From Burkholderia aenigmatica (GTDB lineage Bacteria > Pseudomonadota > Gammaproteobacteria > Burkholderiales > Burkholderiaceae), in assembly GCF_902499175.1 (NCBI RefSeq), contig NZ_CABVQC010000004.1:62001-126000 (forward strand): 64,000 nucleotides of DNA, given 5' to 3'. Within the stretch, counting starts at the first letter, position 1; the number at the start of each line of letters is the position of its first letter. The notes below the pieces were generated by a model. It was not told the origin of the DNA and ran no database searches. It saw nothing but the letters and a program-made list of their open reading frames with translations. Below, in pieces: positions 26,457 through 47,074 of the stretch. Position numbers and translations under genes: made by a program.

Positions 26457-27110
26457 CTATTGCACGTCTGCTGCGCAACGAGCAGCGCGTGGTACCGTCC
26501 TCACCACCGAGCCACGAACATTCGGCGTGAGCGAACGATGCCACGTGATTGAAGATTGGAGACTATCGAGATCGGATCCAAGTTTGGCGAACGCCGCGGG
26601 CGTGAGATCAATAGCACAGACGACGAACGGACAGCTAGCGGTCTCCGGATGAGGTCCCACATACTGAAGATCGAGACCGAAGCGGCGATACAGTCGTGCG
26701 ATGGCCGGGGTGACGACACCAATGATGCGGGTCGCGCCGAGGGATGCCGCGACGGCCATGACATAGGGAAAGAGTTGCATGCCCGAGCCGGCGAACCGCG
26801 ATAGCTCCCATACGGTGGGTGACGAGGGAAAATCGAGGTTCGACGAGCGAGGAAGTAGTTCTCGGAGCAGGTACGGGGCGGTAGTTGGCATCAGACGTGC
26901 GCAACCACATATCTGCCCTTCGGAAGTGAGTTCAACAACCTGAATGGTGTTTTCTCCATCGAAGTGATCCCATTCTATGGTTTCATTTTCCTTAACATCG
27001 GGTAGCGGCCAGCCGAGGCGGCGCACGAACACGTCGTACCGGAACGCGCCGAGTCCACCACGAAGTTCAAGCGGCAAGTCGCTCAACCTACCCGCAATAA
27101 TGAGTGGCAT
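26457..27110 (-). CDS. LuxI-family N-acyl-homoserine lactone synthase
   Basis: A 217-residue enzyme that makes an acyl-homoserine lactone signal from S-adenosylmethionine and an acyl-ACP. All landmark residues of the family are seen: R and F in GAFRYDVFVRRLGW, the acidic cluster in ETIEWDHFDGEN, R in CGCARLMPTTAPYLL, and E and R in TVWELSRFAGSG. The C-terminus is about 20 residues longer than in CepI and rich in Arg and Ser. The chosen ATG gives the usual MPLIIAGRLSDL opening. It lies downstream of luxR on the same strand, 246 bp away. Acyl chain length cannot be deduced. Confidence 0.93.
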   Translation of the reverse strand: MPLIIAGRLSDLPLELRGGLGAFRYDVFVRRLGWPLPDVKENETIEWDHFDGENTIQVVELTSEGQICGCARLMPTTAPYLLRELLPRSSNLDFPSSPTVWELSRFAGSGMQLFPYVMAVAASLGATRIIGVVTPAIARLYRRFGLDLQYVGPHPETASCPFVVCAIDLTPAAFAKLGSDLDSLQSSITWHRSLTPNVRGSVVRTVPRAARCAADVQ

Positions 27111-27287
27111 GTGCGTTCTCCATCGTTTATCGATGGGCGCCACCGTATCAAGTCGAAGCAACAACAGGAACTAGTTAGGTAGGGAGGAGTAGGCGCAAAT
27201 GAATATTGGCCACGCATTATCCATGCGAGATTGAAGATCCCTGGCTGGTCCAGAATTATTCAATATATGGGATTCGAGAGGCCCGGG

Positions 27288-27356: not shown

Positions 27357-28139
27357 CTAATCAAGTAGGCCGTAATTGGAGGCAATGACGGCGGCTGCTA
27401 TCCTGCTATTCACGTTCAGGACCTTCATTGCTTCAGTGATATGATATTCGACGGTATGGCGGGATATTTCGAGAATCATGCAAATATCCGTCGATGTTTT
27501 TCCTTGTGCGACCCATGAAAGGCATTGGCGCTGGCGCGGGGAAAGTTGAACGAACGCCTTCGGATGGGGAGGAGCGAACCGATCCAGCTCCAAACGAAAT
27601 AGATTGCTGATTACGCTCGCGAGCTGCCGACTCGTCCCTGTATTGATACTGGATGACGGCCCTGACAGATTGATGAGCAAAACACTGCCCCCGATCTCAC
27701 GAATTGGAATGCTCAGCCCGTTTTTGAGTCCGGCGTCGCATGCTTCCACGAGCACATGTCGCTCAGCATGGTTCAAATCGGTAATATCGCCCCAGCGATA
27801 AGGTCCTGAGGAAGTAAAAGCCGCTCGATGTACGGGATCAACGGGGCCATAGTTGTGCTGTAGATAGTGCTGCACCCAGTTATTGGGATAATGTGAGCAG
27901 ATTGCCTCCATGGACATGCTAGGTCTAGAGCGAATGCAAGTCAGGGAGATCCGTGTGACGGCGTAACATGGAAAACCCAATGGAAGCACCGCATTGCCAA
28001 GTAAGTCGGAAAGCGAAGAAATATCCTTTGCATCGGTAAAGAGAGACAGGATTGGCGCCATTCGGGTGGCTAATGTGACATTCCATGGTGGTGGCTTGGA
28101 CGCCTTTTTGCTTGTGCGATGCCGAAATCGAGTTCTCAT
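27357..28139 (-). CDS. LuxR-family quorum-sensing transcription factor
   Basis: A 260-residue regulator. The autoinducer-binding domain has the diagnostic NNWVQHYLQHNYGPVDPV segment with Trp, Tyr and Asp-Pro, followed by the Trp of GPYRWGD and the Gly of GLSIPI. The C-terminal HTH (GKTSTDICMILEISRHTVEYHITEAMKVL) is typical. The residue that aligns with the nearly invariant Glu of the HTH start (E178 in TraR) is Gln here, in LSPRQRQCL. The first 25 residues are basic and extend beyond the usual start. It precedes luxI on the same strand and the biosynthetic operon ends 341 bp upstream of it, so it is the likely local activator or repressor. Confidence 0.92.
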   Translation of the reverse strand: MRTRFRHRTSKKASKPPPWNVTLATRMAPILSLFTDAKDISSLSDLLGNAVLPLGFPCYAVTRISLTCIRSRPSMSMEAICSHYPNNWVQHYLQHNYGPVDPVHRAAFTSSGPYRWGDITDLNHAERHVLVEACDAGLKNGLSIPIREIGGSVLLINLSGPSSSINTGTSRQLASVISNLFRLELDRFAPPHPKAFVQLSPRQRQCLSWVAQGKTSTDICMILEISRHTVEYHITEAMKVLNVNSRIAAAVIASNYGLLD

Positions 28140-28480
28140 GACTTCTACCTCACTTTTTGCCTAGTGGAATTCAAGGGAAATGCTGGAGCAGGGCGCCAGC
28201 ACTGTGGCAGCGACTCCGGCAAACGGTATGGTAGTGGGGTGCTGAATACCCGCGCAACTGCTAAGCGATGGCCGACGTCGGAGGTTACGTCGAGATGGAC
28301 GGTGGGTGCGTAGCTAGTGTGGAGTCTAATGGTTGGAATCGGAACGTCATCCAATAGATTGTAATAATTTAATACGCGATATTTTTTGAAAGTCACCACC
28401 CAGAACGGGAGCGATATTGCGACGTATTTAGCGATCGCGTGCCGCGCCATCAGCGAAATTTCCTGAATTCAACGATCCTG
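28140..28480. other. Intergenic region between the biosynthetic operon and luxR
   Basis: The region contains the luxR promoter. A 101-codon minus-strand ORF spans most of it (28145-28450) but has no family resemblance and an unusual composition. No CTG-N10-CAG lux box was found. Confidence 0.4.
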
Positions 28481-29407
28481 TTAGCGAACGAATAGCGCCG
28501 CTGCGGTAAATCCTCCAACTCCGCGGGCGCATAGCAGGAAAGGCTTACCGGGAACCAGATCATCGCAGTCGGCGAGATTGATGAATGGATCGCTGACCGT
28601 CACATGTGCGACGCGAGCAAAGTTGTCAGTAAACAGGCAGCGTGCAGGAAGACCGAGCGATGCAGTAGTTCGGCGCCAGGTTGGCAGATCAAGATGGGAA
28701 GGCAAGATGCGCTGAATCTCGGCTAGGGGCACATTCGCGTCAGCGCTTGTTTGCGTCGCGAGTCGACGCGCCGCAAAGAAGTACTGAGCCGCGAAACGCG
28801 ATTCATCTTCTTCCAGTGTGCCTCGCCAACCTTCTCCACTCGCGTGAAAGGCCAGCGCGACCAATCGATTGATCGAGGTATCGCGCTCGACGAGCACAGC
28901 ACATGCGCCGTCGCTGAGCAATCCGGCCCCGGCTATTGACCGGTCGCTTGCGAGGGGCATGACGTCTGCGCCGACCAGCAGACCGCGGTTGATGGCGGGA
29001 CGGGCGGTAAACATCGCGCGCATGATCCGTAGCGCGCCCAGTGATGAGGCGCAATGCTGCTGTGCAAACGAGAATGCCTCCGCCTGCTCGAAACCAAAGT
29101 GTTCGCATAGCAGGCGTGGCAGGGATAGCGGCGGAGGGGCGACGCTGCCCTGAAGCGTATGAACGTAGACGAGAAAGTCGATCGTGTCGGGCCCAAGCTG
29201 GGTCGCACGAACGAGCGATTGGATGGCGTTCGCGGCGAGTGAAAGCGCAGTCTGTCCCCGAGCGTCATAGAACAAGCGCACCCCCGCTTTTTCGAGGCGT
29301 TTGACGGTCTCGGCGGACTGCTTCGTTCGTTGGGCCCAGCTGCGGACATCCTCGGCCGGCTCAGGCAGATAGTAAGCGGTATGGACGATCCCGATAGAAG
29401 CGCTCAT
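28481..29407 (-). CDS. FabH-like (KAS III) condensing enzyme with catalytic Cys, PqsC-like; pair 1
   Basis: A 308-residue thiolase-fold protein. The nucleophile is C119 in SFAQQHCASSLGALRIM, the position of the FabH cysteine, and the active-site His is likely H238 in ILPSHLDLPTW. The FabH Asn motif is replaced by FTDNFARVAHVTVSDPFIN. The 'QHC' context and loss of the classical GNTSA asparagine loop resemble PqsC-type enzymes that transfer acyl groups to a small nucleophile as part of a heterodimer. The start at 29407 overlaps the stop of the preceding gene by four bases (ATGA), so translation is coupled with its Cys-less partner. It is the last gene of the operon. Confidence 0.8.
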   Translation of the reverse strand: MSASIGIVHTAYYLPEPAEDVRSWAQRTKQSAETVKRLEKAGVRLFYDARGQTALSLAANAIQSLVRATQLGPDTIDFLVYVHTLQGSVAPPPLSLPRLLCEHFGFEQAEAFSFAQQHCASSLGALRIMRAMFTARPAINRGLLVGADVMPLASDRSIAGAGLLSDGACAVLVERDTSINRLVALAFHASGEGWRGTLEEDESRFAAQYFFAARRLATQTSADANVPLAEIQRILPSHLDLPTWRRTTASLGLPARCLFTDNFARVAHVTVSDPFINLADCDDLVPGKPFLLCARGVGGFTAAALFVR

Positions 29408-30444
29408 GACGGATTGAGATATAAGAGCGGCCTGCCATGCGATTCGAACAGTGCGCAACCGACGAAGCCGCCCAGGCCGATGCCCCACGTCAGGATTCGA
29501 TCGCAAACTGACAGATCGTGAGATTCGAGTGCATCCGCGAGCTGCACGATAGGTTCGGCCGCGCCTAGATGGGCGCGGCGGCGGTCGGAAAATTCAATGA
29601 CACGGCGACTGAGATGTCGGCAAATAGCTTCATCAAGTTTCGGATCTATTCCTGCTCCTACGACGGTGCCAATGTCGTTCGGTTGAAGCTCGTGCCGGCG
29701 CAGTATCGCGTCGATCGTCGATCGCAGCGCCGGAACCCAATCTGTGCGGATATCCAGGCTTGAGTGCGGGGCGGGTGTCGCGAACCGGTGGAGGCGGCTG
29801 GCGCGTGCGTCGATCACCACCAGTCCGCAAGACGCGGGTCTGGAACGTTCCACCAGGATGGCACCGGCTGCGTCTCCCTGCACGAATCCCTGATCCGTCC
29901 ATCGCGAGAACGGCGGACACCACTTTTCTGCAGCGACGATCAAGAGGGTGTGGATTTCGGGCTCCGCAATCAGCAGATCACTCGCCAGCTGGAGCGCCGT
30001 GAACGTGGAGGCCCCCTGCAGTTGGGAGATGGAGAACGGGAAGCAGGGCGTTCCGATTACTGCACGCAAGCGTCCAGCGGTCGTTGTGGACACATGCTCG
30101 TTGAGGCTACTGTGACAGAACATTGCAATATCGATCGGCGCTGCATTGGCTGGCCGCGCAGCACATATTGTCTGCGCCACTTTCGCGGCGAGCCCGGATA
30201 GATCGGTATTGCGCTCAACAGGCACACAACGAAATTCGTCCGGCGCTGCGCTGACTGCAGCACTTCTGGTTGCAGCCGCTTTCTTTGCGGGGTGGGGGGC
30301 GTAATCCGCTTGCCACGACGCGACCCACGCGTGCCAACCGGACCGTATCGGAGCACCGAGCGTCGGCTCGATTCCGCACTTACGATGTACAGCGACTGTG
30401 CGCGGCACATAGCTGGCAAGTGCCGTGATCACGGGTGTATTCAT
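29404..30444 (-). CDS. FabH-like protein lacking the catalytic Cys, PqsB-like; pair 1
   Basis: A 346-residue relative of KAS III. The segment aligning with the nucleophile region reads FSISQLQGASTFTALQLA, with Gly at the Cys position (about G144). The His and Asn loops are also not recognisable. The fold signature is kept, for instance LLIVAAEKW, QGDAAGAILVER and the C-terminal GIGLGGFVGCALFE. A dead subunit next to an active one (28481-29407), joined by an ATGA overlap, suggests an obligate heterodimer like PqsB/PqsC. In PqsBC the Cys-less subunit is needed for structure and the substrate channel. The role here is inferred from that precedent. Confidence 0.75.
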   Translation of the reverse strand: MNTPVITALASYVPRTVAVHRKCGIEPTLGAPIRSGWHAWVASWQADYAPHPAKKAAATRSAAVSAAPDEFRCVPVERNTDLSGLAAKVAQTICAARPANAAPIDIAMFCHSSLNEHVSTTTAGRLRAVIGTPCFPFSISQLQGASTFTALQLASDLLIAEPEIHTLLIVAAEKWCPPFSRWTDQGFVQGDAAGAILVERSRPASCGLVVIDARASRLHRFATPAPHSSLDIRTDWVPALRSTIDAILRRHELQPNDIGTVVGAGIDPKLDEAICRHLSRRVIEFSDRRRAHLGAAEPIVQLADALESHDLSVCDRILTWGIGLGGFVGCALFESHGRPLLYLNPS

Positions 30445-31034
30445 GGTGCGCGTGGTAGCGCGAGGTCCTCGGGCAGTAGGTCGTAAAGGAGCCGCCCGAC
30501 GCGCGTGTCATCGACGAGATGGCAGTCTCGTTGCAGTCCGATCAGGCGAAAACCCAAGCGCGCGAGCAGACGTTGCGACGGAACATTGCAGTCGACAGCC
30601 CATGCGGTGATGCACCGCAACCGATCACGGACGAACGCTTCATGAAGTAGGTGTGTAGCAGCGTTATAAGCCATATTGACGCAGATTGGCCGCAACCGGT
30701 CGCGAAGGATCCAGAATGAGCCCGTCGCAAAGCGATGCGTGACATCACTGACGGCGACTACACCGCTCGGGACGGTATAGCCAGCCGAACCGAACACGCG
30801 TATTCGATGCTGTCTGCTATGGACCATCGCTTGGACTGCCAATGCGGGCAGGGCTTGGCGGCCGAGCCCGAAGTCGAACCACCGACTGATGGTCGGCTGC
30901 GCGAACCACGCGACGATGTCGTCGATGTCATTCGGCCCTGGTTCGCGTAACCAGCACGTGGAGGACGTTACATGCGTTGCAGCATTGTCCACCGAGGGCT
31001 GAAGCGTGCCGTCCGTAGGGGCGCAACCACTCAT
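30441..31034 (-). CDS. GNAT-family N-acetyltransferase (RimJ/RimL-like)
   Basis: A 197-residue protein with the GNAT fold. The N-terminal CWLREPGPNDIDDIVAWF is the usual opening of the Acetyltransf_3 type, and the C-terminal half has NMAYNAATHLLHEAFV (pyrophosphate-loop region) and the NVPSQRLLARLGFRLIG motif that is typical of RimL-like enzymes. It could acylate an amino group of the pathway product or of a protein. It overlaps both neighbours by four bases, so it belongs to the operon and is likely a tailoring enzyme. The acyl donor and acceptor are unknown. Confidence 0.8.
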   Translation of the reverse strand: MSGCAPTDGTLQPSVDNAATHVTSSTCWLREPGPNDIDDIVAWFAQPTISRWFDFGLGRQALPALAVQAMVHSRQHRIRVFGSAGYTVPSGVVAVSDVTHRFATGSFWILRDRLRPICVNMAYNAATHLLHEAFVRDRLRCITAWAVDCNVPSQRLLARLGFRLIGLQRDCHLVDDTRVGRLLYDLLPEDLALPRAP

Positions 31035-32140
31035 CCGTCGACCTCCTCATTCGCGACCCGTGGCTCCGCGAGCCAGCCGAGTGCTGTGTCGATGCGCTGC
31101 AGCAGGAAGGCAAACCAGTGGCCCGTCTGGAAGCGGGCTGCCGGCGGGAGGCCTTCAACATAACCGTGACCGCCGCAAAGCTGCACGAATTCACGACTGA
31201 CGTTGACCGACTCGGCCGCGACGTGTCGCAGTAACTGACGAATCAGCGAGACCGGCGCCGACGGGCGGGCCGCACTGACAGCTTGTAGAAAAAGATGGGT
31301 GCCATGGGCGGCGATCAGCATATCGGATAATCGCGCCGCGACGAGTTGATGGTTTGACAACGGCTTTCGGAACGCTTGCCGAGTCGCTGCGTAATCGAAC
31401 GCGAACCGGACGCTATGTTGCATGGCGCCCGTCAAGAGCGCAGCGAGATAGAAGCCGATTTCCGTCATGTACGTTTGCGCGGGAGGAACGCTATCGCTGT
31501 CGGCCCGCGTAATCACGGCGAGCGGCGTTTCGGCCGCGGCCTCGTCAGAATGCAATTGCTCCAATACAAGGGCGCCGAGCGTGGCGATGCCTGTCGATCT
31601 CGAAGATCGCCGATCACGTGGGCGCTCGGTGAGGAGGAGGCGCCGCTTGTCATCTAACCGCATGGTGAGGGTCACCGCGCCGCCCAGTGGACCAAGTTGC
31701 CATATTGTTGAGTTTTCGATGCCCGGCACGGACAACGCGATCGCTGTTGTGCCGTCGAAATACGCCTGAACAGGCCGAGCCAGAACCGAACCGAGCGCAT
31801 TGTGCATCCGGAGCACCATGAGCGCGGGTGCTGTCAGCGTCAACTCCAACGCACGCTCAAGCGGTCCGGCGGCGAGCGCTTCGACAACAAGTGCCAGGCC
31901 GTGACGGTCGATTCCTAGGCCGCCGTGTTCCTCGGGTAGGACCATTGCTCCAAGATCAAGTGTTGCGGCAGCGAGTCTGACGGTTTCTTGCCACGCTGCT
32001 ACGCTGGGTGAACCGGCAAGCAAGGGCTCCAGTCGGTCGCGCGCGAAGTGTTGACTCGCCATATAGAGATTGAGTTGATCATCGGTCAGTGCCCGCGGCG
32101 CCGGAGCTGGCCCTGGCGGGAAGGAATCAGGGGAGAACAT
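31031..32140 (-). CDS. Acyl-CoA dehydrogenase-like flavoprotein, lacking the usual catalytic Glu
   Basis: A 369-residue member of the acyl-CoA dehydrogenase superfamily. Recognisable parts are VLPEEHGGLGIDRHGLALV, the domain-3 start TEIGFYLAALLTGAMQHSVRFAFDYAATRQAFRKPLSNHQ and REFVQLCGGHGYVEGLPPAARF. The C-terminal motif that normally supplies the base (EGTxxI) is replaced by AFLLQRID, and the FAD-contacting middle domain is short and divergent. It may be a partner subunit or a non-oxidising homologue. ATG at 32140 is preferred because GGAGG is six bases upstream; a frame extending to 32452 overlaps the decarboxylase gene. It is 28 bp after that gene. Confidence 0.78.
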   Translation of the reverse strand: MFSPDSFPPGPAPAPRALTDDQLNLYMASQHFARDRLEPLLAGSPSVAAWQETVRLAAATLDLGAMVLPEEHGGLGIDRHGLALVVEALAAGPLERALELTLTAPALMVLRMHNALGSVLARPVQAYFDGTTAIALSVPGIENSTIWQLGPLGGAVTLTMRLDDKRRLLLTERPRDRRSSRSTGIATLGALVLEQLHSDEAAAETPLAVITRADSDSVPPAQTYMTEIGFYLAALLTGAMQHSVRFAFDYAATRQAFRKPLSNHQLVAARLSDMLIAAHGTHLFLQAVSAARPSAPVSLIRQLLRHVAAESVNVSREFVQLCGGHGYVEGLPPAARFQTGHWFAFLLQRIDTALGWLAEPRVANEEVDG

Positions 32141-32168
32141 CACAATCCTCCACAAAGAACGAGGGTGG

Positions 32169-33377
32169 TCAGACGAGCATCTCGATCGCATCAGGGTGGC
32201 CGAGAAAGTCCCTCGGGCTGGCCGAGCGTCCATACGCACCCGACTGAAATACGACCACAAAGTCCCCAATGCGAGCCTCGGGAAGCAGCACGTCGTCGGC
32301 GATCCGGTCGAGCGGCGTGCACAGGCATCCGACGATGTGGCAACGCTCCGTCGGGGCTTGTGTCTGGCGATTCCCAATGGCGACCGGAAAATTGCGACGC
32401 AGGATCTGACCGAAGTTTCCGGATGCGGCCAGGTGGTGGTGCAGGCCGCCATCGGTGATCAGGAACGTTCGGTCTCGGGATACCTTGCGATCGATGATGC
32501 GGCACACATAGATGCCGGCTTCCCCGACCAAATATCGTCCAAATTCCAGGACCGTGCGCGTGTCCGGAAAGCTGCCGCGGAACACGCCGAGCCAATCGTG
32601 CATGGCCTCGGTGACTGCAGCGAGGTCGAGTGGCGTTTCTCCCGCGAAATAGGGGATGCCGAAACCGCCTCCGAAGTTCACGTATTGCGGAGCGAGCGAC
32701 AGGCCAGCGGCTAGTCTCACGACGAGATCCGAGCTTTTCCGTTGAGCCTCGATGACGGTCGGGGCGTGCAGACACTGGGATCCCCAAAAAATGTGAAAAC
32801 CGGCCAACGTCACTTCTCTAGCATCGAGCTCCCGTAGTAACTCGGGCACCTGCTCCGCGTCGAGCCCAAAAGGGGTGGCCCCGCCACCCATACGCATGCC
32901 GCTGTGATCGACGTGAAAGTCCGGGTTGACTCGAATGGCGACCTTCGGCTGCACACCGAGCTCCCAGCCGAGTGCTGTCACGAGGTGCAGCTGGGTGCTC
33001 GATTCGAGGTGAATGTTGACACCGCTTGCGACGGCGCGACGCAAGTCGTCCCGGCTTTTGCCTGGGCCGGCAAAGCCGATCAGTTCTGCGGGCATGCCCG
33101 CGTTTAGCGCAAGCGCCATCTCGTTGGCCGATGCCACGTCGAACCCGTCCATCTGTGGCGCAAGGTGATGGACGACCGCGGGCATTGGGTTGGCCTTGAT
33201 CGAGTAATGTAGGTCGATACCGGCTGGCAGCGTATCGCGCAGCGTGCATACACGCGCGTCGAGCATTGCGCGATCATAGGCGAAGAACGGTGTGCGCCCT
33301 GCGCGATCGGCCAGGCGATTGATCTCGACGCCGCCGACGGTGAGGATGCCTTCGCGCTCGCCAAACAGTCCGTTCAT
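32169..33377 (-). CDS. PLP-dependent decarboxylase, LysA/BtrK-like
   Basis: A 402-residue fold-type III decarboxylase. The PLP lysine is K61 in DLHYSIKANPMPAV, the phosphate-binding glycines are in YVNFGGGFGIPY, and the C-terminal Cys of the other subunit is in GCLCTPLDRIADD. The family includes diaminopimelate and ornithine decarboxylases, but members that sit beside an AMP ligase and an ACP (BtrK of butirosin, and the exosortase-A-associated type) act on, or are thought to act on, carrier-bound amino acids. The neighbouring ligase and ACP put this gene in that group. It overlaps the ligase stop by four bases. Confidence 0.85.
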   Translation of the reverse strand: MNGLFGEREGILTVGGVEINRLADRAGRTPFFAYDRAMLDARVCTLRDTLPAGIDLHYSIKANPMPAVVHHLAPQMDGFDVASANEMALALNAGMPAELIGFAGPGKSRDDLRRAVASGVNIHLESSTQLHLVTALGWELGVQPKVAIRVNPDFHVDHSGMRMGGGATPFGLDAEQVPELLRELDAREVTLAGFHIFWGSQCLHAPTVIEAQRKSSDLVVRLAAGLSLAPQYVNFGGGFGIPYFAGETPLDLAAVTEAMHDWLGVFRGSFPDTRTVLEFGRYLVGEAGIYVCRIIDRKVSRDRTFLITDGGLHHHLAASGNFGQILRRNFPVAIGNRQTQAPTERCHIVGCLCTPLDRIADDVLLPEARIGDFVVVFQSGAYGRSASPRDFLGHPDAIEMLV

Positions 33378-34993
33378 GATTGCCTCGCTTCGGCGGCGGC
33401 GTCCGGATTGGAGAAGGCGGCGCGCAATGCGGCTCGATCGAATTTCCCGTTAGGGTTGCGCGGAACTGTCTCGCGAACCACGATGCGATGCGGCACCATG
33501 TAGCGCGGCAGATGCTCCACACACCAAGCCTGAAGTGTTTGAACATCGAAGCCCGTGGCGGTCGGCACGACCAACAGGACGATCGCTTCGCCAAGTTCAT
33601 CATTGGGGATGCCGAAGGCAACCGCTTCCGTGACAAGACCACTGTCGTGAACGATTTCTTCGATCTCTTCCGGGCTGATGCGATAACCGGAGCTCTTGAT
33701 TTGGGCGTCGTTGCGCGCGACGAAGTACAGGAATCCTTCTGCATCTCGTCGTACCAGATCACCTGACCAGACAGCACGATCTCGCGGCGCGCCACCGGGT
33801 TTCAGCTCGGGCGAAGGTCGATAGCGCTGGGCTGTGCGCGTCGCGTCATTCCAATAACCGAGCGTGACGCAGGCTCCGACATGGACGAGTTCTCCGGTTT
33901 CGTCCGGTCCACAAGGCGAGCCATCATCGCGAACGACCAGAATTCGGGCGTTAGGTACGGCTTTCCCGATGGAGTCGGGGCGACGATCGACCTCTGAGGG
34001 GTCGAGAAACGTGGAGCGAAATGCCTCGGTCAGGCCATACATTAGATAGGGTTTGGCATGCGGAAACAATGCTCGGAGTTGCTGCAATACGGGTGCCGGC
34101 AGCTTGCCGCCGGTGTTCGCAAAGTAGCGCAGCTTCCGGCGTGCCGTTTCGGGCCAAGCCGCACGGGCCAGTTGCATCCATAAGGGCGGCACACCCGTGA
34201 TTGCTGTAATACGTTCGCTCGCGCACGCATCAATGACGTCTTGCGGTGCAAGATAGTTGATGAGCACGGCCGTGGCCCCCACGGCCCAGGTGGATGTGAG
34301 CTGACTCAGGCCAGCATCGAAACTGAGCGGCAGGGCCGCGAGGATTCGATCGGATGAGGCGTGGTTCAGATAATGGGCAACGCTCCAGGCACCCTCGAGC
34401 AGGTTGCGGTGGCTTAGCATGACGCCTTTTGGCAGTCCGGTCGAGCCTGAGGTGTACAGGATGGCGGCCAGATCCGTGTCGACATTGGCCGACGCCGGTG
34501 ATTGTGGTGGATTTTCACTATCGCGTTCCGTGCGATTTCCGCTTGCGGACTCGGGCCAGCTTTGAACGTGCGTTGTTGTTCGGAGATGTCGGCTTGCGGA
34601 GCCGGCATCGTCCACGATGATTGTGTTGGAAACGCCGGTAAGACCATGTTCGTCAAGGACCCGCGCGCGCAGCGCGCTGGTAATCAGGCAATCGGCACCG
34701 GAATCGAGCAGGATGTGAGCGACCTGCTGAGGTTTGAGGAGCGGATTGATCGGAACGAACACGCATTGCGCGGCAGCTGCGCCAAGCATCGACACGACGG
34801 TTTCGACACGTTTGTCCAGATAGATCGCAATGCGCGCGCCGGCCGTGAATCCAAGCGCGTAGAGCGCATTGCCCATGCCTCGCGCGCGGTGAACCAGGTC
34901 CTGATAGGTTACTCGGGCGGAACCGCAGACGAGAGCTTCCGCGTCAGGTGTGCGGTTTGCAGCGGTGTGCATGAGGTCGAGGACGTTTCTCAT
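33374..34993 (-). CDS. AMP-forming acyl/aminoacyl ligase (ANL superfamily)
   Basis: A 539-residue adenylating enzyme. The P-loop motif AAILYTSGSTGLPKGVMLSH lies near residue 185, LMYGLTEAF supplies the acid-recognition and ATP contact, DLVRRDAEGFLYFVAR is the hinge, and RNPNGKFDRAAL has the C-terminal catalytic Lys. It would activate a carboxylic or amino acid and load it onto the pathway's ACP (37009-37287). Its overall character is like the ligases found with LysA-like decarboxylases in exosortase-associated clusters and like prolyl-AMP ligases of pyrrole pathways. The substrate pocket cannot be read from sequence by eye. Confidence 0.85.
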   Translation of the reverse strand: MRNVLDLMHTAANRTPDAEALVCGSARVTYQDLVHRARGMGNALYALGFTAGARIAIYLDKRVETVVSMLGAAAAQCVFVPINPLLKPQQVAHILLDSGADCLITSALRARVLDEHGLTGVSNTIIVDDAGSASRHLRTTTHVQSWPESASGNRTERDSENPPQSPASANVDTDLAAILYTSGSTGLPKGVMLSHRNLLEGAWSVAHYLNHASSDRILAALPLSFDAGLSQLTSTWAVGATAVLINYLAPQDVIDACASERITAITGVPPLWMQLARAAWPETARRKLRYFANTGGKLPAPVLQQLRALFPHAKPYLMYGLTEAFRSTFLDPSEVDRRPDSIGKAVPNARILVVRDDGSPCGPDETGELVHVGACVTLGYWNDATRTAQRYRPSPELKPGGAPRDRAVWSGDLVRRDAEGFLYFVARNDAQIKSSGYRISPEEIEEIVHDSGLVTEAVAFGIPNDELGEAIVLLVVPTATGFDVQTLQAWCVEHLPRYMVPHRIVVRETVPRNPNGKFDRAALRAAFSNPDAAAEARQS

Positions 34994-35043
34994 GATGGTA
35001 TCCGGATCGAATGTCGAGCGTTGAAAGGAAATCGTTCAGGTGA

Positions 35044-35991
35044 TCAGTGGCGGACGACCATGGCACCGAAGCAGCCAGCGAGGCCACACGAGAACAGCAG
35101 CGACCAGCCGCCCGGTTCCCGGTTCGAACATGTCTGGAAGTTAATGAAGGGATCCGCGCCAAAGACGTGACCGATTGGCGCGAAGTTCGCCGTGAAAAGT
35201 CGCTCACGAGGAATGGAAAGCATTGTCATCAGCCTGAACCAGCCCGGAAGATTGGCGTGATGAGGCAGTACGTGCGTAATCTCGCGTGTCGTGATGCCTG
35301 CTTGTTGAATGGCGGCCCGCATGGTCGTGAATGCAGACCAGTAGTACCGGTCGTCGGGAATCGGCTGCAGATCCTCGTCGGTGCCGCGGAAGGATCGTCC
35401 ATCTGTGTACACGTGCAGGCCCGCAATGGCGTTTCGATGACCGTCTCGTTCTAGCAATAGCGCACAAGCACCGTCGCTATGGAGGGCAAGATCCTGGATT
35501 GCTCGCAGTCGGTCGCAGTGGGATCCGATCACATCGGCACAGACCACAATTGCGCGCCGGATGGAGGGCCGTCGCATGGCGAGCGCCTGCAACACACGGA
35601 TCGCGGCCATTGGCGAGACGCAGTGCTGCTGCGTGACTGAAAATGCCAGCGCACTGTTCAGATTCGTTTGGGACTGAATCTGTTGGGCGGTACTTGCTGG
35701 TGGCGCGATAACGCTGGTCTGAATCGTGTGCGTGTACACGAACGCATCGATCGATTCAGGTGCTATTCGGGTGTCGCGTAGCAGGGACGATATAGCGTCA
35801 ACGGCGAGCGTCACGGGCGATTCGCCAGCTGCGTCGTGGAACTGCGTTACGCCGTTTTCGATCAGTGCACGCGCTCGAATCGACGGCTGACCACAGCGCT
35901 GCGCCCAGCGATGTGCATCCACAGTTCGATCCGGCAGACTGAATGCGATGCCAGACAGTGCAAGCGAGCTAGCCTGTTGCGACGCAATCAT
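35044..35991 (-). CDS. FabH-like (KAS III) condensing enzyme with catalytic Cys, PqsC-like; pair 2
   Basis: A 315-residue thiolase-fold enzyme. The nucleophile is C124 in AFSVTQQHCVSPMAAIRVL, and the catalytic His is H244 or H245 in HVLPHHANLPGW, which keeps the HxAN spacing of FabH. The third loop reads FTANFAPIGHVFGADPFIN, the same pattern as the paralogue at 28481-29407, so the two are each other's close relatives. It overlaps its Cys-less partner (35988-37025) by four bases. By analogy with PqsC it transfers an acyl chain from a carrier or CoA to a second substrate, with or without decarboxylative condensation. Confidence 0.82.
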   Translation of the reverse strand: MIASQQASSLALSGIAFSLPDRTVDAHRWAQRCGQPSIRARALIENGVTQFHDAAGESPVTLAVDAISSLLRDTRIAPESIDAFVYTHTIQTSVIAPPASTAQQIQSQTNLNSALAFSVTQQHCVSPMAAIRVLQALAMRRPSIRRAIVVCADVIGSHCDRLRAIQDLALHSDGACALLLERDGHRNAIAGLHVYTDGRSFRGTDEDLQPIPDDRYYWSAFTTMRAAIQQAGITTREITHVLPHHANLPGWFRLMTMLSIPRERLFTANFAPIGHVFGADPFINFQTCSNREPGGWSLLFSCGLAGCFGAMVVRH

Positions 35992-37025
35992 GATCCACCT
36001 CCACGAAATTCAAGGAGAGCGCAACCGGCCTGCCCTTGGAAGCCGGCGGACCAAACGAGGGCATGTTGTCCCTCGCTAGGGTTGATCGACCGCAGCAACG
36101 CGTCGAGCCGTGCAGGCGTGTCGGCGGCGCAGAAATGGCCGGGCGCGTCCATACGTATGTGGCAGACCCGTTCGGGCCGCAGTCCGCAACGCGTATTGAT
36201 TTCGCGAGCCAGTCGAGTCTCGATTGGCGCCGGAAGTACCCAGTCGACATTCGCAGGTTGCAAATCCGCGCCTGAGCACGTCTCGCTAATGACGTTCGTG
36301 AGCGTCGATGTGTAGACGGGTTCGCGCTCACTTGCGAGCGGTGGGATTCCGGGCGTCAGTACGGTGAGCCCGCTCACGCGCCATCCCGGGCCGGGGTGTC
36401 TCGCGATCAGTACGGCAGCGGCCCCGTCACCCATGTCGATCAGTGCACCGATCCGACGTGAGAACGGCCGGCGCCAGCGTTCCGCGGCGACAATCACGAC
36501 GGTATTCAGTCGGATATCAGCGGCCATCATCGCCACGGCAATCTCCAACGCCATCAGGAACGACACGCCTTGAAGCTGGCCGACCGCCAGCGGTGCTCGG
36601 CTTGATCCAAGTTCGCTGTGGAGGCGGCAGGCACACGACAATGCCAGATCATGCTCGAAGCTCGTTGTGCATACGATGATTTGATCGGGTGTGGGCGTGG
36701 CGACCTGAGGCGACGATTCAAGCAGCGCTCGCACCGTGGCAAGTGCCATGTCGGACAACGTCAGGTCGGATTCCACAGCGACCCGGTGATCAGTAGCTCG
36801 TGATGCTTGCGGCAACGGAATACCGGCCACGCCGAATGGGGCACCACTGTCGCGCCACCGCAGCGTATCGGCGTATACGGCTTGCATCACGTCCTCTCGC
36901 GCGGATCCACCCGAAACCATGAATGGTTCGAGATGTGCATCGGCCGGGACATCGTGCGGTGGGATATATCGTGCCGTGGCGACAATGCACGGTTCGTCGC
37001 CAGTGACGTTAGTCGAAGGACGCAT
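35988..37025 (-). CDS. FabH-like protein lacking the catalytic Cys, PqsB-like; pair 2
   Basis: A 345-residue KAS III relative. The nucleophile region reads LAVGQLQGVSFLMALEIA with Gly (about G153) at the Cys position, matching the other Cys-less copy at 29404-30444 (QLQG in both). The core VVIVAAERW, DMGDGAAAVLIAR and C-terminal GFQGQAGCALLEF show that the fold is kept. It overlaps the ACP gene by 17 bases and its active partner by four, so the two are translationally coupled. It probably forms the structural half of a heterodimer. Confidence 0.76.
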   Translation of the reverse strand: MRPSTNVTGDEPCIVATARYIPPHDVPADAHLEPFMVSGGSAREDVMQAVYADTLRWRDSGAPFGVAGIPLPQASRATDHRVAVESDLTLSDMALATVRALLESSPQVATPTPDQIIVCTTSFEHDLALSCACRLHSELGSSRAPLAVGQLQGVSFLMALEIAVAMMAADIRLNTVVIVAAERWRRPFSRRIGALIDMGDGAAAVLIARHPGPGWRVSGLTVLTPGIPPLASEREPVYTSTLTNVISETCSGADLQPANVDWVLPAPIETRLAREINTRCGLRPERVCHIRMDAPGHFCAADTPARLDALLRSINPSEGQHALVWSAGFQGQAGCALLEFRGGGS

Positions 37026-37287
37026 GGGATTCGACGAACGCGACGAGATTGCCGAAACGCAGGAACAAATCGGCGGATAGATCTTCGGGGGCCAGCGTGA
37101 AGCCGAAGCGCTGTTCGAGTTGCAGCAGCAAGTCCGTCATATTCATTGAATCCACACCGACGTCGAAGAGGTTGGTGTCATCTACGATGAGATCGGTGCT
37201 TAGGGTGCTGCCAAGTACCGATAGCAAGCAGGTTTTTACTGTCTCGGACACGCTGGCGGAGCTGGGGGAAGCGGGATGGGTTGCCAT
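37009..37287 (-). CDS. Acyl/peptidyl carrier protein
   Basis: A 92-residue stand-alone carrier protein. The phosphopantetheine attachment serine is S47 in FDVGVDSMNMTDLLLQLEQ, with the usual acidic helix 2 after it and FTLAPEDLSADLF as helix 3. It would hold the intermediates that the ligase, decarboxylase, dehydrogenases and condensing enzymes of this operon act on. The GVDSMNM motif is closer to pathway-specific carriers than to AcpP (which has LGADSLD). No phosphopantetheinyl transferase is encoded in the window, so a housekeeping one must act. Confidence 0.9.
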   Translation of the reverse strand: MATHPASPSSASVSETVKTCLLSVLGSTLSTDLIVDDTNLFDVGVDSMNMTDLLLQLEQRFGFTLAPEDLSADLFLRFGNLVAFVESHASFD

Positions 37288-37319
37288 GAACGATCTCCAG
37301 TGCGAAATTTCGGCCGGGT

Positions 37320-38579
37320 TCAGGATTGGTGCGCTTCTGTAGAGCGGTGCGACGCGGGAGAGATGGCCTCCCAGGGAAGAGTCGCCGAGCGGAGTGCGGA
37401 GCGAGCAATCATGAGCCGCTGTAGGTCCCCGGTACCTTCCATGATGTCGAAGGCCTTTGCATCACGATAGCTTTGCTCGAGCGAGGGAAAGGCAGCGGTA
37501 CCATCAAGGCCGGCGAGATCGATGGCTGTCCTGGTGATGCGGGCGGCTACTTGTGATGCATATGCCTTGGCCATTGACGAGTCCATGGAAGTCGCGATGC
37601 CTTGATCGGTCTTCCACGCCGCGTGTCGGCAGAGCAACTGGGCTGTAGTGATTTGCCGATCGATATCGAGCAGGGTTTCGTTCACATTCGCAGTGCGGTG
37701 GCGTTGATTCACAGGATGCCCGCCTGCTTCGAAGTAGGCCGCGAGATCGTCGCGTACTCGTCGACATGCGCCGACCATGACCGCGGAAAGTAGGGGGCGG
37801 AAGTAGTCCCATGCGTGTTGTGCGCCCGAAAACGCGTCGTTGAGGGGCTTTTCGTCACCGCGTCTGAGAAGCGCGTCGTCAGGGACTTCGCAATCGGTGT
37901 AAGAGAGAATCGCAAGCTGACTCGCGCGCAGGCCGACCATTTTCTCGATGCGATCGACAGAGAAGCCCGGGATATTGCGATCGACGTGGAACGCTCGAAC
38001 GCCGAAACGACCAGCGTGCCGATTAATGGTGGCGAACGTGATCACGTCGTCCGCGCGTGCGCCGTTGGTGATGAAGCACTTGGTACCGTTCAGCACCCAG
38101 CCGCGTGCCGTCTTGCGAGCGGTGGTCCGCATCGCGGTCGCATCCGAGCCGCAGTCGGGCTCCGTAATGGCAAACGCACCCCAGCGCGGTGTGTCGCTGC
38201 GAAATCGTTTGAAGAAGCGGGTCTGTTGCTCGCCGCTGCCGAGTGCGAGGACGGGTGGCATTGCAAGGCCAGGGCCGGGCAGCGCAAGCGCTAGCGCCGC
38301 GTCGGCGTACCCGAGATATTCCATGAGTGTGGTGCGCGACATCAGTGATTGCACGTCCATGCAACCGCCGTATGCGGCCGGAACGAGATTCAAGTTCAGC
38401 GCAGTTACGTCCGAGGGGGCACAAACTGCATCTGGAATTTGCCGTGTCCGGTCGGCTTCGGGGCCGTGCAAACGCATGCGTGCAGCAAGCTGATCCAGTT
38501 CCAGCCCGTCGGCCAAGAGGTTGGCACGGATTGTCGCAAGCGTGGATTGCACCTGAGACGACTTCACCGACTGTGACAT
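37320..38579 (-). CDS. Acyl-CoA dehydrogenase-like flavoprotein (probable acyl-ACP dehydrogenase)
   Basis: The first gene of the operon, 419 residues. Conserved features are FAITEPDCGSDATAMRTTA (FAD and substrate loop), KCFITNGARADDVITFAT, and a C-terminal AKAFDIMEGTGDLQRLMIARS in which the Glu of MEGTGD is the catalytic base. Such enzymes introduce a double bond alpha-beta to a thioester, and several act on carrier-bound amino acids, for example prolyl-carrier dehydrogenases of pyrrole pathways. The second dehydrogenase-like gene at 31031 lacks this Glu, so this one is probably the redox-active member. The ACP gene starts 32 bp downstream. Confidence 0.85.
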   Translation of the reverse strand: MSQSVKSSQVQSTLATIRANLLADGLELDQLAARMRLHGPEADRTRQIPDAVCAPSDVTALNLNLVPAAYGGCMDVQSLMSRTTLMEYLGYADAALALALPGPGLAMPPVLALGSGEQQTRFFKRFRSDTPRWGAFAITEPDCGSDATAMRTTARKTARGWVLNGTKCFITNGARADDVITFATINRHAGRFGVRAFHVDRNIPGFSVDRIEKMVGLRASQLAILSYTDCEVPDDALLRRGDEKPLNDAFSGAQHAWDYFRPLLSAVMVGACRRVRDDLAAYFEAGGHPVNQRHRTANVNETLLDIDRQITTAQLLCRHAAWKTDQGIATSMDSSMAKAYASQVAARITRTAIDLAGLDGTAAFPSLEQSYRDAKAFDIMEGTGDLQRLMIARSALRSATLPWEAISPASHRSTEAHQS

Positions 38580-38676
38580 GAGGGATTCCCTCCTGCTGGC
38601 GACCTATATCGAGTGACCGACATGCAGGGAAGCTGCGGGTACTCGGCGCATGGCGTTCGGATTGCAGCGTAGGTCT

Positions 38677-38685
38677 TGGTTACCA
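38677..38685. promoter_or_regulatory. TGGTTACCA palindrome, candidate GntR/FadR operator
   Basis: A perfect 9-bp palindrome TGGT-T-ACCA in the divergent gap between the biosynthetic operon (start 38579, minus) and the FadR-type regulator gene (plus). FadR-subfamily proteins typically bind TGGTNNNACCA-like sites, here with a shorter centre. The position makes it a candidate for autoregulation or joint control; not proven. Confidence 0.4.
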
Positions 38686-38694
38686 TGCCTGCTA

Positions 38695-38710
38695 CTCCTA
38701 ACGTTGGGAG
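38695..38710. repeat. Imperfect 16-bp palindrome CTCCTAAC/GTTGGGAG
   Basis: Arms match at seven of eight positions. It lies 10 bp from the TGGTTACCA site and about 116 bp upstream of the first biosynthetic gene. It could be a second regulator site; it does not fit a lux box. Confidence 0.3.
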
Positions 38711-38806
38711 GGGGCATGAAGCCGGAAATCTCGCCGTGCCGGGCGGGGATGCCTGATAATGGCGCCGGGATACAGCAGTGAATGGCCAACGACGGACGTG
38801 ACCGAT

Positions 38807-39643
38807 ATGGCAGGGCGAAAACCGACAACCGAAAAGAAGATGTCGCCGGCGCAGCCGGATAAACGAGGTTCGCGCGCAATCAAGCGCGGCGACCAAGTGG
38901 CCGAGCAGATCAAGCGTTGGATTAACGACGGGCAGGCACGGCCAGGAAAGCGCTTGAACAAGGAGGCCGAGCTTCAGCAGATGTTCAACGTCAGCCGGGG
39001 TTCGATGCGCGATGCGCTCAAGGCGCTGGAGATGCAAGGGCTCGTGAGACTGAGTACCGGGCCGGATGGCGGCGCGACGATTACGCGCGTACCACTGGCC
39101 CGAGCATTCCAGTCGCTGCAGAACTATCTGTTTTTCGAGAGCATCACGCTTGAGGACATTTATGCGGTACGCCGCACGCTGGAACCCATGGTGGCGGCGG
39201 GTGCGGTTCCCCATCTGAGCGACGCGGACTTCGATGCGCTCGAGCGCAGTGTGTCCGTCTGCGAGCCGTTCGAAGCACGTCACGCCGAGGCGCTCGACCA
39301 GCGGCACGAGGATATCCATTTCCACGATGTACTGGCTGCAGCACATCCGAATGCGTTTCTGCGTAGCCTATGCCAGATCATCAACCAGATGCTGCACACG
39401 CTCGTGATCGTGGCGGGGAACGTGACGCAGCAGGACTATCAGGCATTCGGGCGGCACACGGTTGCCGCGCACCGCGCGATACTGGACGCCGCGCGACGTC
39501 GGGATGCCGACGCAGTCGCGCAACTCATGACGGCGCACATGGACGAAGCGCATTCGCAGTTGCGCACAGTGCACGCTGCGCTGCAGCAGAAGCTGGTGCT
39601 GGATTCAGAGTTGGACCTGGATTCCGATCGTGATGCCGGCTAA
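38807..39643 (+). CDS. GntR-family regulator, FadR subfamily (FCD)
   Basis: A transcription factor of about 278 residues. The winged helix begins RGDQVAEQIKRWINDGQARPG and contains MFNVSRGSMRDALKALEMQGLV; the FCD domain follows with the metal-type ligands in HEDIHFHDVLAAAHPNAF and HRAILDAARRRDADA. The start is uncertain: ATGs at 38759, 38807 and 38840 share the frame, and none has a strong ribosome site; 38807 is taken as the middle choice. It is divergent from the biosynthetic operon and converges with an amidase gene. It might control either; regulators of this type usually sense small acids from a catabolic pathway. Confidence 0.85.
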   Translation: MAGRKPTTEKKMSPAQPDKRGSRAIKRGDQVAEQIKRWINDGQARPGKRLNKEAELQQMFNVSRGSMRDALKALEMQGLVRLSTGPDGGATITRVPLARAFQSLQNYLFFESITLEDIYAVRRTLEPMVAAGAVPHLSDADFDALERSVSVCEPFEARHAEALDQRHEDIHFHDVLAAAHPNAFLRSLCQIINQMLHTLVIVAGNVTQQDYQAFGRHTVAAHRAILDAARRRDADAVAQLMTAHMDEAHSQLRTVHAALQQKLVLDSELDLDSDRDAG

Positions 39644-39684: not shown

Positions 39685-41109
39685 TTAGGCAGGGGTTGCG
39701 CCGGCCGCGGAGGCGAAGAGCTCGCGTGTCAGCTCGGCGAACGGGGCGCGCCCAAATGCGCGTTCGAGCATATGACTCGCCCACAACACCAACGCATCGG
39801 CATGGCGACTGCCTACAATCTGGATGCTGACGGGCAGGCGCGTGGCAGTCATCCCGGCATAGAGGCTTGCCGCCGGCAGTCCCAGCTGATTGCACCATGC
39901 CGTGAAATGCGGAAACAAGGCTGTGCTTGAACTCACTTCGGCAAGTGACGGGGCCACGTCGGGATATACCGGGCAGATGAGGAGATCGTGCCGCTCGAAA
40001 AACGCATTGACGGCGGCGCCCAACTCTCCCCGTTCGATCAGCGCGCCCAATAGCTCCCCCCGCGAGATGCCGTTGCCGGCTTGCGCGTATGCCTGCAGCG
40101 ATGGGTCGAGTTCGGCCCACCTGTCGGTCATGCCGTCCGTGAGCTGACGGCAGCATGCACGCCAAAGTGTTGTGTGGATCGCATTGCACTGCGCGACGCC
40201 AGGCGGATCGGCGACGTGAACGAGTGCTCCAAGTTCGCGAAACATCGCTGCAGTTCGTACCACGGCATCGTGGATTTCAGCCTCGGCGATGACAGGCAAT
40301 CCGAGCGTGGGACTGCACGCAATACGAATGCCGCCCGGAACGGGAAGGCATGACAGCCCGCGCGCATAGTCTGCTCCCTCGAACGGTAAAGCGTACCAGT
40401 CGCGGCTGTCCGGGCGGGTGATGATCGTTAGGATCTGCGCGGCATCCTCGACGCAACGTGTCATCGGGCCGACATGACTGAGCAGACCGAAGGGACCGCG
40501 AGGTGCGTGGGGTACTCGCCCAAAACTGGGCTTGAATCCGAAGACGCCGGTGAAGGAGGCTGGGATGCGAATGGATCCGCCGCCGTCCGTGCCGATGGCC
40601 ACCGGGCCCATTCCGAGCGCAACGGCGACGGCCGCACCTCCGCTGCTGCCACCCGGCGTACGCGAGCGGTCCCATGGATTGCGCGTGGTGCCGGTGAGGG
40701 GACTGTCGGTGACGATCTTGTGTGCGAAATCCGGCATGGTCGTTTTGCCAAAGCAGATTGCCCCCGCTTCACGTAGGCGCGCCACGCTGGGACTGTCCGA
40801 TGCGGCGGCTTCCGGCATCGTTGCCCGCGACCCGTATCGCGTGGGGAGTCCGGCAACGGCGATGTTGTCCTTGATGCTGACCGGGACGCCGTCGAGTTGG
40901 CTGAGGGGCGCGCCACGTTGCCAGCGCGCCTCGGACGCCCGCGCCAATTCGAGAGCCTCATCGGCGACTTGGCAGAATGCGTTGACCGTCGGATCCAATG
41001 ACTGGATCCGTTCCAAGATGGTCTTCATCACATCGACGGGCGACGTCCGTCCGTTCGCATACAGCCCGCTAAGTTCCCATGCAGTCAGTTCACGCAGGTC
41101 GATTCCCAT
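39685..41109 (-). CDS. Amidase-signature-family hydrolase 1
   Basis: A 474-residue enzyme with the Ser-cisSer-Lys catalytic triad: Lys in PVSIKDNIAVAG, the cis-Ser in the TPGGSSGGAAVAVALGMG loop, and the nucleophilic Ser in DGGGSIRIPASF. It hydrolyses a C-N amide bond; the substrate is unknown. It is a paralogue of the amidase at 47075, sharing the unusual KIVTDSPLTG-TRNPWDR segment. The ATG at 41109 follows GGAGG by five bases; a TTG 12 bases upstream is less likely. It is transcribed away from the Liv transporter genes and may be under the nearby XRE regulators. Confidence 0.88.
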   Translation of the reverse strand: MGIDLRELTAWELSGLYANGRTSPVDVMKTILERIQSLDPTVNAFCQVADEALELARASEARWQRGAPLSQLDGVPVSIKDNIAVAGLPTRYGSRATMPEAAASDSPSVARLREAGAICFGKTTMPDFAHKIVTDSPLTGTTRNPWDRSRTPGGSSGGAAVAVALGMGPVAIGTDGGGSIRIPASFTGVFGFKPSFGRVPHAPRGPFGLLSHVGPMTRCVEDAAQILTIITRPDSRDWYALPFEGADYARGLSCLPVPGGIRIACSPTLGLPVIAEAEIHDAVVRTAAMFRELGALVHVADPPGVAQCNAIHTTLWRACCRQLTDGMTDRWAELDPSLQAYAQAGNGISRGELLGALIERGELGAAVNAFFERHDLLICPVYPDVAPSLAEVSSSTALFPHFTAWCNQLGLPAASLYAGMTATRLPVSIQIVGSRHADALVLWASHMLERAFGRAPFAELTRELFASAAGATPA

Positions 41110-41469
41110 GCCATCCTCCAATTAATTATAATAAACTAACGGTAGGCGTGACCGGCCACGTTTGTCAAGCTGCGGGGCATCATGCTAGAGGGAGAGTTGC
41201 CGGGTAAACGCTTGGATGGGGCACGTTGACGAGTGACCGTGACGAGCGTAGATTTAATGATAATAAATAGGTAGTGCGCCAAGCGTGATCCGCAGCGGAG
41301 ACGCAGAATGCGTGACATGCCGCGTATTTCGGGGCGCAAGGTGTCCAGTCACCGAAATCGGCGACGCGTCGTTTGCTCGAGAGAACTGGGGGCGTATTGG
41401 GAGGGTACGTGGTGTCGTTGCCGACACCGAGGGTGCTGCGATGCGCCCGGTGAGGAGCGACTTTGAGCG
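41110..41469. other. Intergenic region upstream of amidase 1
   Basis: A 360-bp gap holding the promoter of the minus-strand amidase gene. An AT-rich stretch with TATAAT on the minus strand lies near 41125-41135. No gene and no CTAAG-N5-CTTAG operator is seen here. Confidence 0.4.
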
Positions 41470-43267: not shown

Positions 43268-43270
43268 ATC

Positions 43271-47022: not shown

Positions 47023-47074
47023 GCACGAGGGAATCGAGCGCGTTCTAATTTATCTCAATTATTAAGGATTGCAT

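Follow-up and report, generated by a model that had tools for sequence, protein, structure and literature searches.

Downstream of ten closely packed biosynthetic genes of Burkholderia aenigmatica, and in the same orientation, lies a luxR-luxI pair, an arrangement that raises the question of what these genes make and whether the pair controls them. The genes run along the minus strand from position 38579 to 28481 of the window, by which we mean the whole stretch of 64,000 nucleotides analyzed here (positions 62,001 to 126,000 of contig NZ_CABVQC010000004.1). They had been picked out in an initial annotation made from the sequence alone. Our analysis confirmed their existence and coordinates, and family searches agreed with all of the assignments: two acyl-CoA dehydrogenase (ACAD)-like proteins, an acyl carrier protein (ACP), four beta-ketoacyl-ACP synthase III (KAS-III)-like proteins, an AMP ligase, a LysA/BtrK-like decarboxylase, and a GNAT protein. 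The reading that we favor, with moderate confidence, is that of a megasynthase-free N-acyl (dehydro-)beta-alanine pathway that is a direct target of its own LuxR-LuxI pair. In plainer terms, the ten genes probably turn aspartate into an unusual fatty amide without giant assembly-line enzymes. As the initial annotation had noted, no polyketide synthase (PKS) or nonribosomal peptide synthetase (NRPS) was found among the window open reading frames (ORFs) scanned, which made up part of the total.

Conservation of the ten genes and linkage to luxR-luxI

A search for relatives with a ks2 alignment returned 37 loci (L009 to L045), 26 of which (L009 to L033 and L038) we assign to the Burkholderiaceae; three of these (L009, L024, and L029) reach a contig end. 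All ten genes were found in identical order and orientation in 23 of the 23 untruncated Burkholderiaceae loci, and this recurrence of both set and order argues that the arrangement is more than chance, even though the independent number is below 23, as some appear to be near-duplicates (L011/L031 and L016/L017). In L033, acad1 aligned in two pieces. Gene set, conservation, and linkage are direct observations on the DNA, as are the operon box, the pocket identities, and the active-site residues described below. The junctions are tight as well, and the initial description of mostly 4-base overlaps was roughly right. Five of the nine junctions overlap by 4 bases (ks1/ks2, ligase/decarboxylase, acad2/gnat, gnat/ks3, and ks3/ks4, the last counting only with the ks4 start at the ATG at 29407), while acp and ks1 overlap by 17 bases and the remaining three junctions are gaps of 32, 50, and 28 bases. 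The starts are probably at 29407 for ks4, because this gives the 4-base overlap with ks3, and at 32140 for acad2, rather than at start codons far upstream.

Outside this core, the set loosens. Loci L034 to L037 (Mitsuaria, Pelomonas, Roseateles, and Paracidovorax) hold most of the gene set; acad1 was not found upstream in any of the four, a piece of it lies after luxI in L037, and a MatE-family gene sits between ks2 and the ligase gene in L034. In seven more distant loci, L039 to L045, ks2 is accompanied by further KAS-III and ACAD genes, arranged in different orders. The ligase was detected in six of these seven (not in L044) and the decarboxylase in four (L041, L042, L043, and L045), the other three stopping at or before the ligase. 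L041 has a single KAS-III pair and no GNAT match, L044 has ATP-grasp and MatE genes, and L045 has FabA-like and MatE genes. Among 65 genomes of the genus, 10 have the ks2 protein at E <= 1e-130; at 1e-30 the count rises to 28 of 65, the additional ones representing weaker relatives. Of 398 genomes sampled across the family, 23 have it at E <= 1e-90. The cluster is patchy yet widespread, and among open-licence papers we found no description of this operon. Two loci deserve separate mention: an insertion of ~2.4 kb splits the decarboxylase gene of L025 (B. cenocepacia NCTC13227) into two parts (12580-13110 and 15575-16309), and one Burkholderia genome (G047) has, beside this operon, a second locus (L049) with a 46% identical ligase and KAS-III relatives.

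In 25 loci, the operon is followed on its own strand by both luxR and luxI, as the initial annotation had seen in the window. In L023 and L025, the distance from ks4 to luxI is ~5 kb and at most 1.6 kb, respectively, a placement for which contig identity was deduced from the ks2 coordinates. Among loci L009 to L038, luxI is downstream in 27 of the 27 that are readable that far (L009, L024, and L029 are not, and were left out). Farther afield, L044 has a luxR-luxI pair directly upstream of the cluster, L045 has a LuxI gene near it on the opposite strand, and the L041 genome has one LuxI that could not be placed near the cluster; no LuxI was found in the genomes of L039, L040 (Rubrivivax), L042, and L043.

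In Paraburkholderia xenovorans LB400, exactly two PF00765 matches were found, one of them on contig 2 and the other, at 438,664, on contig 3; the latter, the sole LuxI match on chromosome 3, lies within this locus. A review assigns BraI/R of LB400 to chromosome 2 and XenI2/R2 to chromosome 3, with 3-hydroxy-C8-homoserine lactone (3-OH-C8-HSL) as the signal of the latter system (PMC3742214). Because the LB400 chromosome 3 LuxI sits in this locus and chromosome 3 is the published place of XenI2/R2, the luxR-luxI pair here corresponds to XenI2/R2. In the passages of that review that were consulted, XenI2/R2 is not linked to a biosynthetic operon (PMC3742214).

Promoter layout and probable quorum control

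Upstream of acad1 is a 20-bp inverted repeat with the consensus CCCTCCCAATGTTCGGAGGT. The acad1-box sites were initially chosen as the best consensus match upstream of acad1, and the matrix built from them was trained without the tested source (the window, L009, and L010 being left out together). Scored with such leave-out matrices, the operon box ranked first in its whole source in 25 of 25 sources. In the window, it had the top score among 63,981 positions with a matrix from other loci, and it was unique at <=3 mismatches. Lux-type boxes follow the pattern NNCT-N12-AGNN, which 21 of the 25 operon boxes fit. Across 22 sources aligned on the box, mean pairwise identity was 83% in the box versus 32 to 42% in the flanks, the alignment being ungapped and flank identity thereby somewhat lowered. 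A TANNNT hexamer follows the acad1 box by 21 to 23 nt in 24 of 24 sources and the luxI box by exactly 21 nt in 20 of 20, both spacing counts having been made without a shuffle control. LuxR-activated promoters in which the box takes the place of the -35 element have this box/-10 layout. A scan with the sigma-70 consensus returned 0 promoters, against an average of 4.3 in shuffles, which could be compatible with an activator box replacing the -35 element; we do not use it as support. At <=5 mismatches across all loci to L049, the operon box was not found anywhere in L032 or at the operon start of L033 (6 mismatches each) or in L035 to L037 and L039 to L049, and L034 has one opposite-strand site. 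The operon box is a feature of Burkholderiaceae loci only.

For luxI, the evidence is softer. Its box is weaker than the operon box and fits the NNCT-N12-AGNN pattern in 14 of 20 sources. When the luxI region was scored with the acad1 matrix, at most 2% of random windows did as well in 10 of 24 loci. Judged from the linkage and the shared promoter layout, which together lend support to the quorum control proposed in the initial annotation, direct control of the operon by its LuxR-LuxI pair is very probable.

Several observations weigh against this prediction. The luxI-region figure exceeds 5% in L011, L030, L032, L034 to L037, and the window itself, where it is 24%; with a fraction of 0.24 of random windows scoring equally well, the luxI box in the window is not significant alone. 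In L013 and L026 the best luxI-region site differs from the shared position, and the Roseateles-type loci have no operon-start box. Common descent links the loci, and the promoter counts are therefore not independent. The activity of the window LuxI is also not assured, to judge from its sequence: its PF00765 match covers about half of the profile, and relative to L011 it has an 11-residue loop deletion, in common with L010, while the core residues are kept in the alignment. Published reports on XenI2/R2 fit poorly in two respects, namely exopolysaccharide as a possible output (PMC10902836) and the reported absence of xenI2/R2 from P. kururiensis (PMC6692535); a ks2 relative with 81% identity is listed from P. 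kururiensis.

Predicted substrate and chemistry

The first predicted enzyme of the pathway is the ligase, which matched TIGR03098 with 692.9 bits (cut-off, 592.35) and is a free-standing adenylation domain that has the AfcQ-type pocket and the selectivity arginine. At nine of ten pocket positions, numbered after GrsA on the basis of motifs, the window ligase and ten relatives have the same residue; the tenth is Gly or Ala. These relatives come from related clusters (L026, L034, L041, L042, L043, and L045) and from four other Burkholderia loci (L046 to L049), of which L046 to L048 are afc-like, the gene content having been scanned in L048. The spacing from Arg326 to Lys517 is 191 in the window ligase versus 192 in three afc-locus ligases and between Arg311 and Lys503 of AfcQ. 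In AFC-BC11 biosynthesis, AfcQ activates L-Asp, with Arg311 as the selectivity residue (PMC12186527), and would act at the beta-carboxylate. Because the window ligase shares its pocket and Arg-Lys spacing with AfcQ-type ligases, and AfcQ takes L-Asp, its substrate is most likely L-aspartate, activated at the beta-carboxylate.

The names of the matching families suggest a different role. Both TIGR03098 and TIGR03099 are named after exosortase A, both matches are above the curated cut-offs, and the possible link of XenI2/R2 to exopolysaccharide (PMC10902836) would suit a ligase and decarboxylase that serve exopolysaccharide or PEP-CTERM processing. We regard this as very improbable. The initial annotation had raised the prospect of an operon confined to exosortase loci apart from luxRI; instead, no TIGR02602 exosortase match was found in the genome to which the window belongs, and the linkage here, in all 27 readable loci, is to LuxRI. 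All six exosortase-type ligases compared come from genomes with exosortase genes, the exosortase lying within 25 kb on the same contig in one of the six only (G443). Five of them (L054 and L056 to L059) have another pocket, with Tyr, Thr, and Ser at positions 236, 299, and 301, and three of these five also have Asn at 239 and Cys at 278; overall identity is similar despite the pocket change (48 to 51%). The sixth, L055, has the AfcQ-type pocket. In the 4.5-kb loci of these ligases, the decarboxylase is the only other gene in common, apart from a weak ACP match in one of them. As a separate observation, five of the six high-scoring TIGR03098 ligases at L054 to L059 thus combine another pocket with a neighboring decarboxylase that is 51 to 54% identical, and their amino acid may differ from aspartate.

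A free-standing carrier protein and a pyridoxal phosphate (PLP)-dependent aminoacyl-ACP decarboxylase are both present in the operon. The decarboxylase matched TIGR03099 with 564.6 bits (cut-off, 478.45), and among solved proteins the two entries for BtrK are its best matches (E about 1e-73). In the butirosin system, too, an amino acid is decarboxylated while bound to a carrier, as predicted for this operon; the butirosin pathway loads glutamate with a different type of ligase. As BtrK is a glutamyl-ACP enzyme, this kinship leaves glutamate as a rival and counts against the aspartate assignment: L-Glu would be loaded at the gamma-carboxylate and decarboxylated to gamma-aminobutyryl (GABA)-ACP, which ACAD1 would turn into a 4-aminocrotonyl unit, the remaining steps being as for aspartate. 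The BtrK score is about twice that of the next solved relatives, and the decarboxylase is only 25 to 27% identical to the afc-locus enzyme. The ligase pocket, however, is of the AfcQ type, shown for L-Asp, and a butirosin-like decarboxylase has been proposed on the aspartate route to bolagladin (PMC7756342). Weighing these, we think it improbable that glutamate is the substrate and retain aspartate.

The four KAS-III-like proteins are of two types, one with a Cys/His/Asp triad and one with the cysteine replaced. Cys124, His275, and Asp280 of KS2 are invariant in 26 of 26 rows, and by hand count His275 and Asp280 align with His295 and Asp300 of CerJ. In ks1, the cysteine is absent from its position in all 20 rows and is replaced by Gly in the window. 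Because ks1 resembles ks3, and ks2 resembles ks4, much more closely than the two members of a pair resemble each other, the second pair looks like a copy of the first, duplicated as a unit.

What the pairs do is a matter of two readings. PqsBC of Pseudomonas aeruginosa consists of Cys and Cys-less KAS-III-like partners, as in this operon, and has the same fold; the pattern here is compatible, as a sequence pattern, with a PqsBC-like heterodimer, and the initial annotation had proposed two condensing pairs of this kind. The KAS-III pairs would then form C-C bonds between acyl chains and an aminoacyl or beta-keto unit, and the product, again under LuxRI control, would be an amine or ketone in acylated or cyclised form. 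PqsC, PqsD, and PqsBC are among the sequence and fold matches, and some KAS-III-fold enzymes do condense. The fold search for KS2 gave a confident KAS-III fold but does not discriminate between chemistries, since FabH, ChlB3, DpsC, CerJ, and PqsBC scored close together. FabH has a His/Asn pair, and the triad here aligns instead with the His/Asp pair of CerJ. The operon has no gene for a malonyl or beta-keto substrate, and the other genes of the quinolone route are absent from it. AfcL, a KAS-III-like enzyme with the same triad, holds a peptidyl chain and transfers it to the amine of lysyl-CoA (PMC12186527). Because the KS2 triad aligns with that of CerJ and AfcL transfers a peptidyl group to an amine, acyl transfer is favored, and C-C condensation appears rather unlikely. 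The condensing role proposed in the initial annotation is the less favored one.

For the ACAD proteins, the EGT glutamate motif is kept in five of five ACAD1 rows and missing from six of six ACAD2 rows, which suggests a catalytic ACAD1 and a noncatalytic ACAD2 subunit. The NCBIfam relatives of ACAD1 (among them acryloyl-CoA reductase, RedW, and PigA) are all far under cut-off, and, as regards orthology to BolQ/AfcE, ACAD1 had only weak matches in the afc stretches and genomes searched.

Taken together, the following route can be proposed. The ligase would adenylate L-Asp at the beta-carboxylate and load it onto the ACP, and the BtrK-like enzyme would remove the alpha-carboxylate to leave beta-alanyl-ACP. 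The amine would be acylated by one KAS-III pair (Cys enzyme plus Cys-less partner) or by the GNAT protein. ACAD1, the putative N-acyl-beta-alanyl-ACP desaturase, with ACAD2 as its proposed noncatalytic partner, would desaturate this to a dehydro-beta-alanyl enamide, and the second KAS-III pair would shift the chain from the ACP to the final acceptor, thereby releasing it. LuxR and the LuxI signal would activate luxI and the operon from boxes 21 to 23 nt before the -10-like sites. We infer all of these reactions, the order of the acylation, desaturation, and release steps, the acyl group, the acceptor, and the regulation. The initial interpretation is partly supported: amino acid activation, ACP loading, BtrK-like decarboxylation, and desaturation all agree with the sequence-based predictions, now refined to a path that most likely leads from L-aspartate through beta-alanyl-ACP to a dehydro-beta-alanyl unit.

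The initial annotation named no described pathway with this set, which holds in part. A core of adenylation domain, carrier protein, decarboxylase, KAS-III, and ACAD has been described for bolagladin and AFC-BC11, whereas the two KAS-III pairs, ACAD2, GNAT, and LuxRI set this operon apart. With AFC-BC11 (afc) of the Burkholderia cepacia complex it shares a free-standing adenylation enzyme (49% identical, same pocket), a carrier protein, a PLP decarboxylase (25 to 27%), KAS-III-like proteins of the Cys and Cys-replaced types (25 to 32%), and the lack of condensation domains; AfcP decarboxylates loaded Asp to beta-Ala, and genes for a fatty acyl-AMP ligase (FAAL), for citrate-synthase-like and methyltransferase functions, and for numerous membrane proteins occur only in afc, which is under the control of ShvR (PMC12186527). 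With bolagladin (bol) of B. gladioli the shared logic, as its authors propose it, is that of Asp on a free-standing ACP, decarboxylation, N-acylation by KAS-III, and desaturation by an ACAD to dehydro-beta-alanine (PMC7756342). There, the acylation of beta-alanyl-ACP has been proposed to be the work of a KAS-III homologue, and deletion of bolQ, the ACAD gene, gave the beta-alanine analogue of the product; the bol route supplies an NRPS and draws on a fatty acid derived from citrate (PMC7756342). No NRPS was found here among the ORFs scanned. We read the operon as a LuxRI-linked variant of the beta-alanyl thioester logic that works without condensation domains; its gene set is distinct, and its promoter layout is shared.

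If this is true, it would give the XenI2/R2 (3-OH-C8-HSL) circuit of plant-beneficial Paraburkholderia a concrete, conserved target that can be tested, and the AFC logic, free of condensation domains, would be extended to many species, among them the workable soil strain LB400. The predicted small-molecule family would escape searches keyed to PKS or NRPS genes, and the promoter layout would predict when to look for the product. More speculatively, and only as a tentative proposal, the operon may be the dedicated XenI2/XenR2 output, a widespread PKS- and NRPS-free route to N-acyl-dehydro-beta-alanine (enamide) metabolites via two duplicated Cys/Cys-less KAS-III pairs and an ACAD heteromer, whose product may act as a second signal gated by cell density or as a light-sensitive antifungal in plant-associated Paraburkholderia.

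Feature coordinates and surroundings of the operon

Table 1. Genes and predicted promoter elements of the ten-gene operon and its luxR-luxI pair (window coordinates)
Feature	Position	Strand	Description	Basis
Operon box	38693..38712	-	Lux-type box CCCTCCCAACGTTAGGAGTA, NNCT-N12-AGNN, upstream of operon	Matrix scan; conservation
Operon -10-like hexamer	38666..38671	-	TACGCT, 21 nt after operon box	TANNNT spacing
acad1	37320..38579	-	Acyl-CoA-dehydrogenase-like	Pfam; alignments; MEGT catalytic Glu motif kept
acp	37009..37287	-	Free-standing carrier protein, DSM serine motif	PF00550; sequence
ks1	35988..37025	-	KAS-III-like, catalytic position without Cys	Pfam; alignments
ks2	35044..35991	-	KAS-III-like, Cys124/His275/Asp280, acyltransferase-type triad	Pfam; CerJ alignment; fold
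lig	33374..34993	-	Free-standing adenylation enzyme, AfcQ-type pocket	TIGR03098; pocket comparison
dec	32169..33377	-	PLP-dependent BtrK-like aminoacyl-ACP decarboxylase	TIGR03099; BtrK relatives
acad2	31031..32140	-	Second ACAD-like protein, without catalytic Glu motif	Pfam; alignment; likely start
gnat	30441..31034	-	GNAT acyltransferase	PF13302; one weak solved relative, E 0.00058
ks3	29404..30444	-	ks1 paralogue (29% identity), without Cys	Pfam C-/N-terminal models just under cut-off
ks4	28481..29407	-	ks2 paralogue (38% identity), Cys kept	Alignment; start from ks3 overlap
luxR	27357..28139	-	Autoinducer-binding and helix-turn-helix regulator	PF03472, PF00196; linkage
luxI box	27169..27188	-	Probable second lux-type box TCCTCCCTACCTAACTAGTT, upstream of luxI	Position conserved in 20 sources
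luxI -10-like hexamer	27142..27147	-	TACGGT, 21 nt after luxI box	TANNNT spacing
luxI	26457..27110, or to 27164 from TTG	-	Acyl-homoserine-lactone synthase family	PF00765; alignment

Two further ORFs were considered as genes and rejected. The ORF at 38564-39346, a candidate eleventh gene, matched no family and overlaps the opposite-strand GntR gene at 38759-39643, and the ORF at 28145-28450 likewise had no family match.

Upstream of the operon lie a GntR/FCD regulator gene (38759-39643, plus strand), 78% identical to its LB400 counterpart, and an amidase gene (39685-41121, minus strand) with 73% identity in P. xenovorans; because both are kept there, flank conservation extends past the operon. 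Branched-chain/urea-type ABC transporter genes, a second amidase, and a porin follow at 42386-50137, perhaps as a separate amide-uptake locus, and VirB/Trb-type conjugation genes (CagE/TrbE/VirB, TrbL, TrbI, and T2SSE) lie at 54640-63040, ~16 kb or more from the operon. On the luxI side are an IS110-family transposase gene and an rve integrase gene (22461-24578) and, at 8165-13404, two proline-racemase-type genes, a DAO-type oxidoreductase, and an aldehyde dehydrogenase, a set suggestive of hydroxyproline catabolism.

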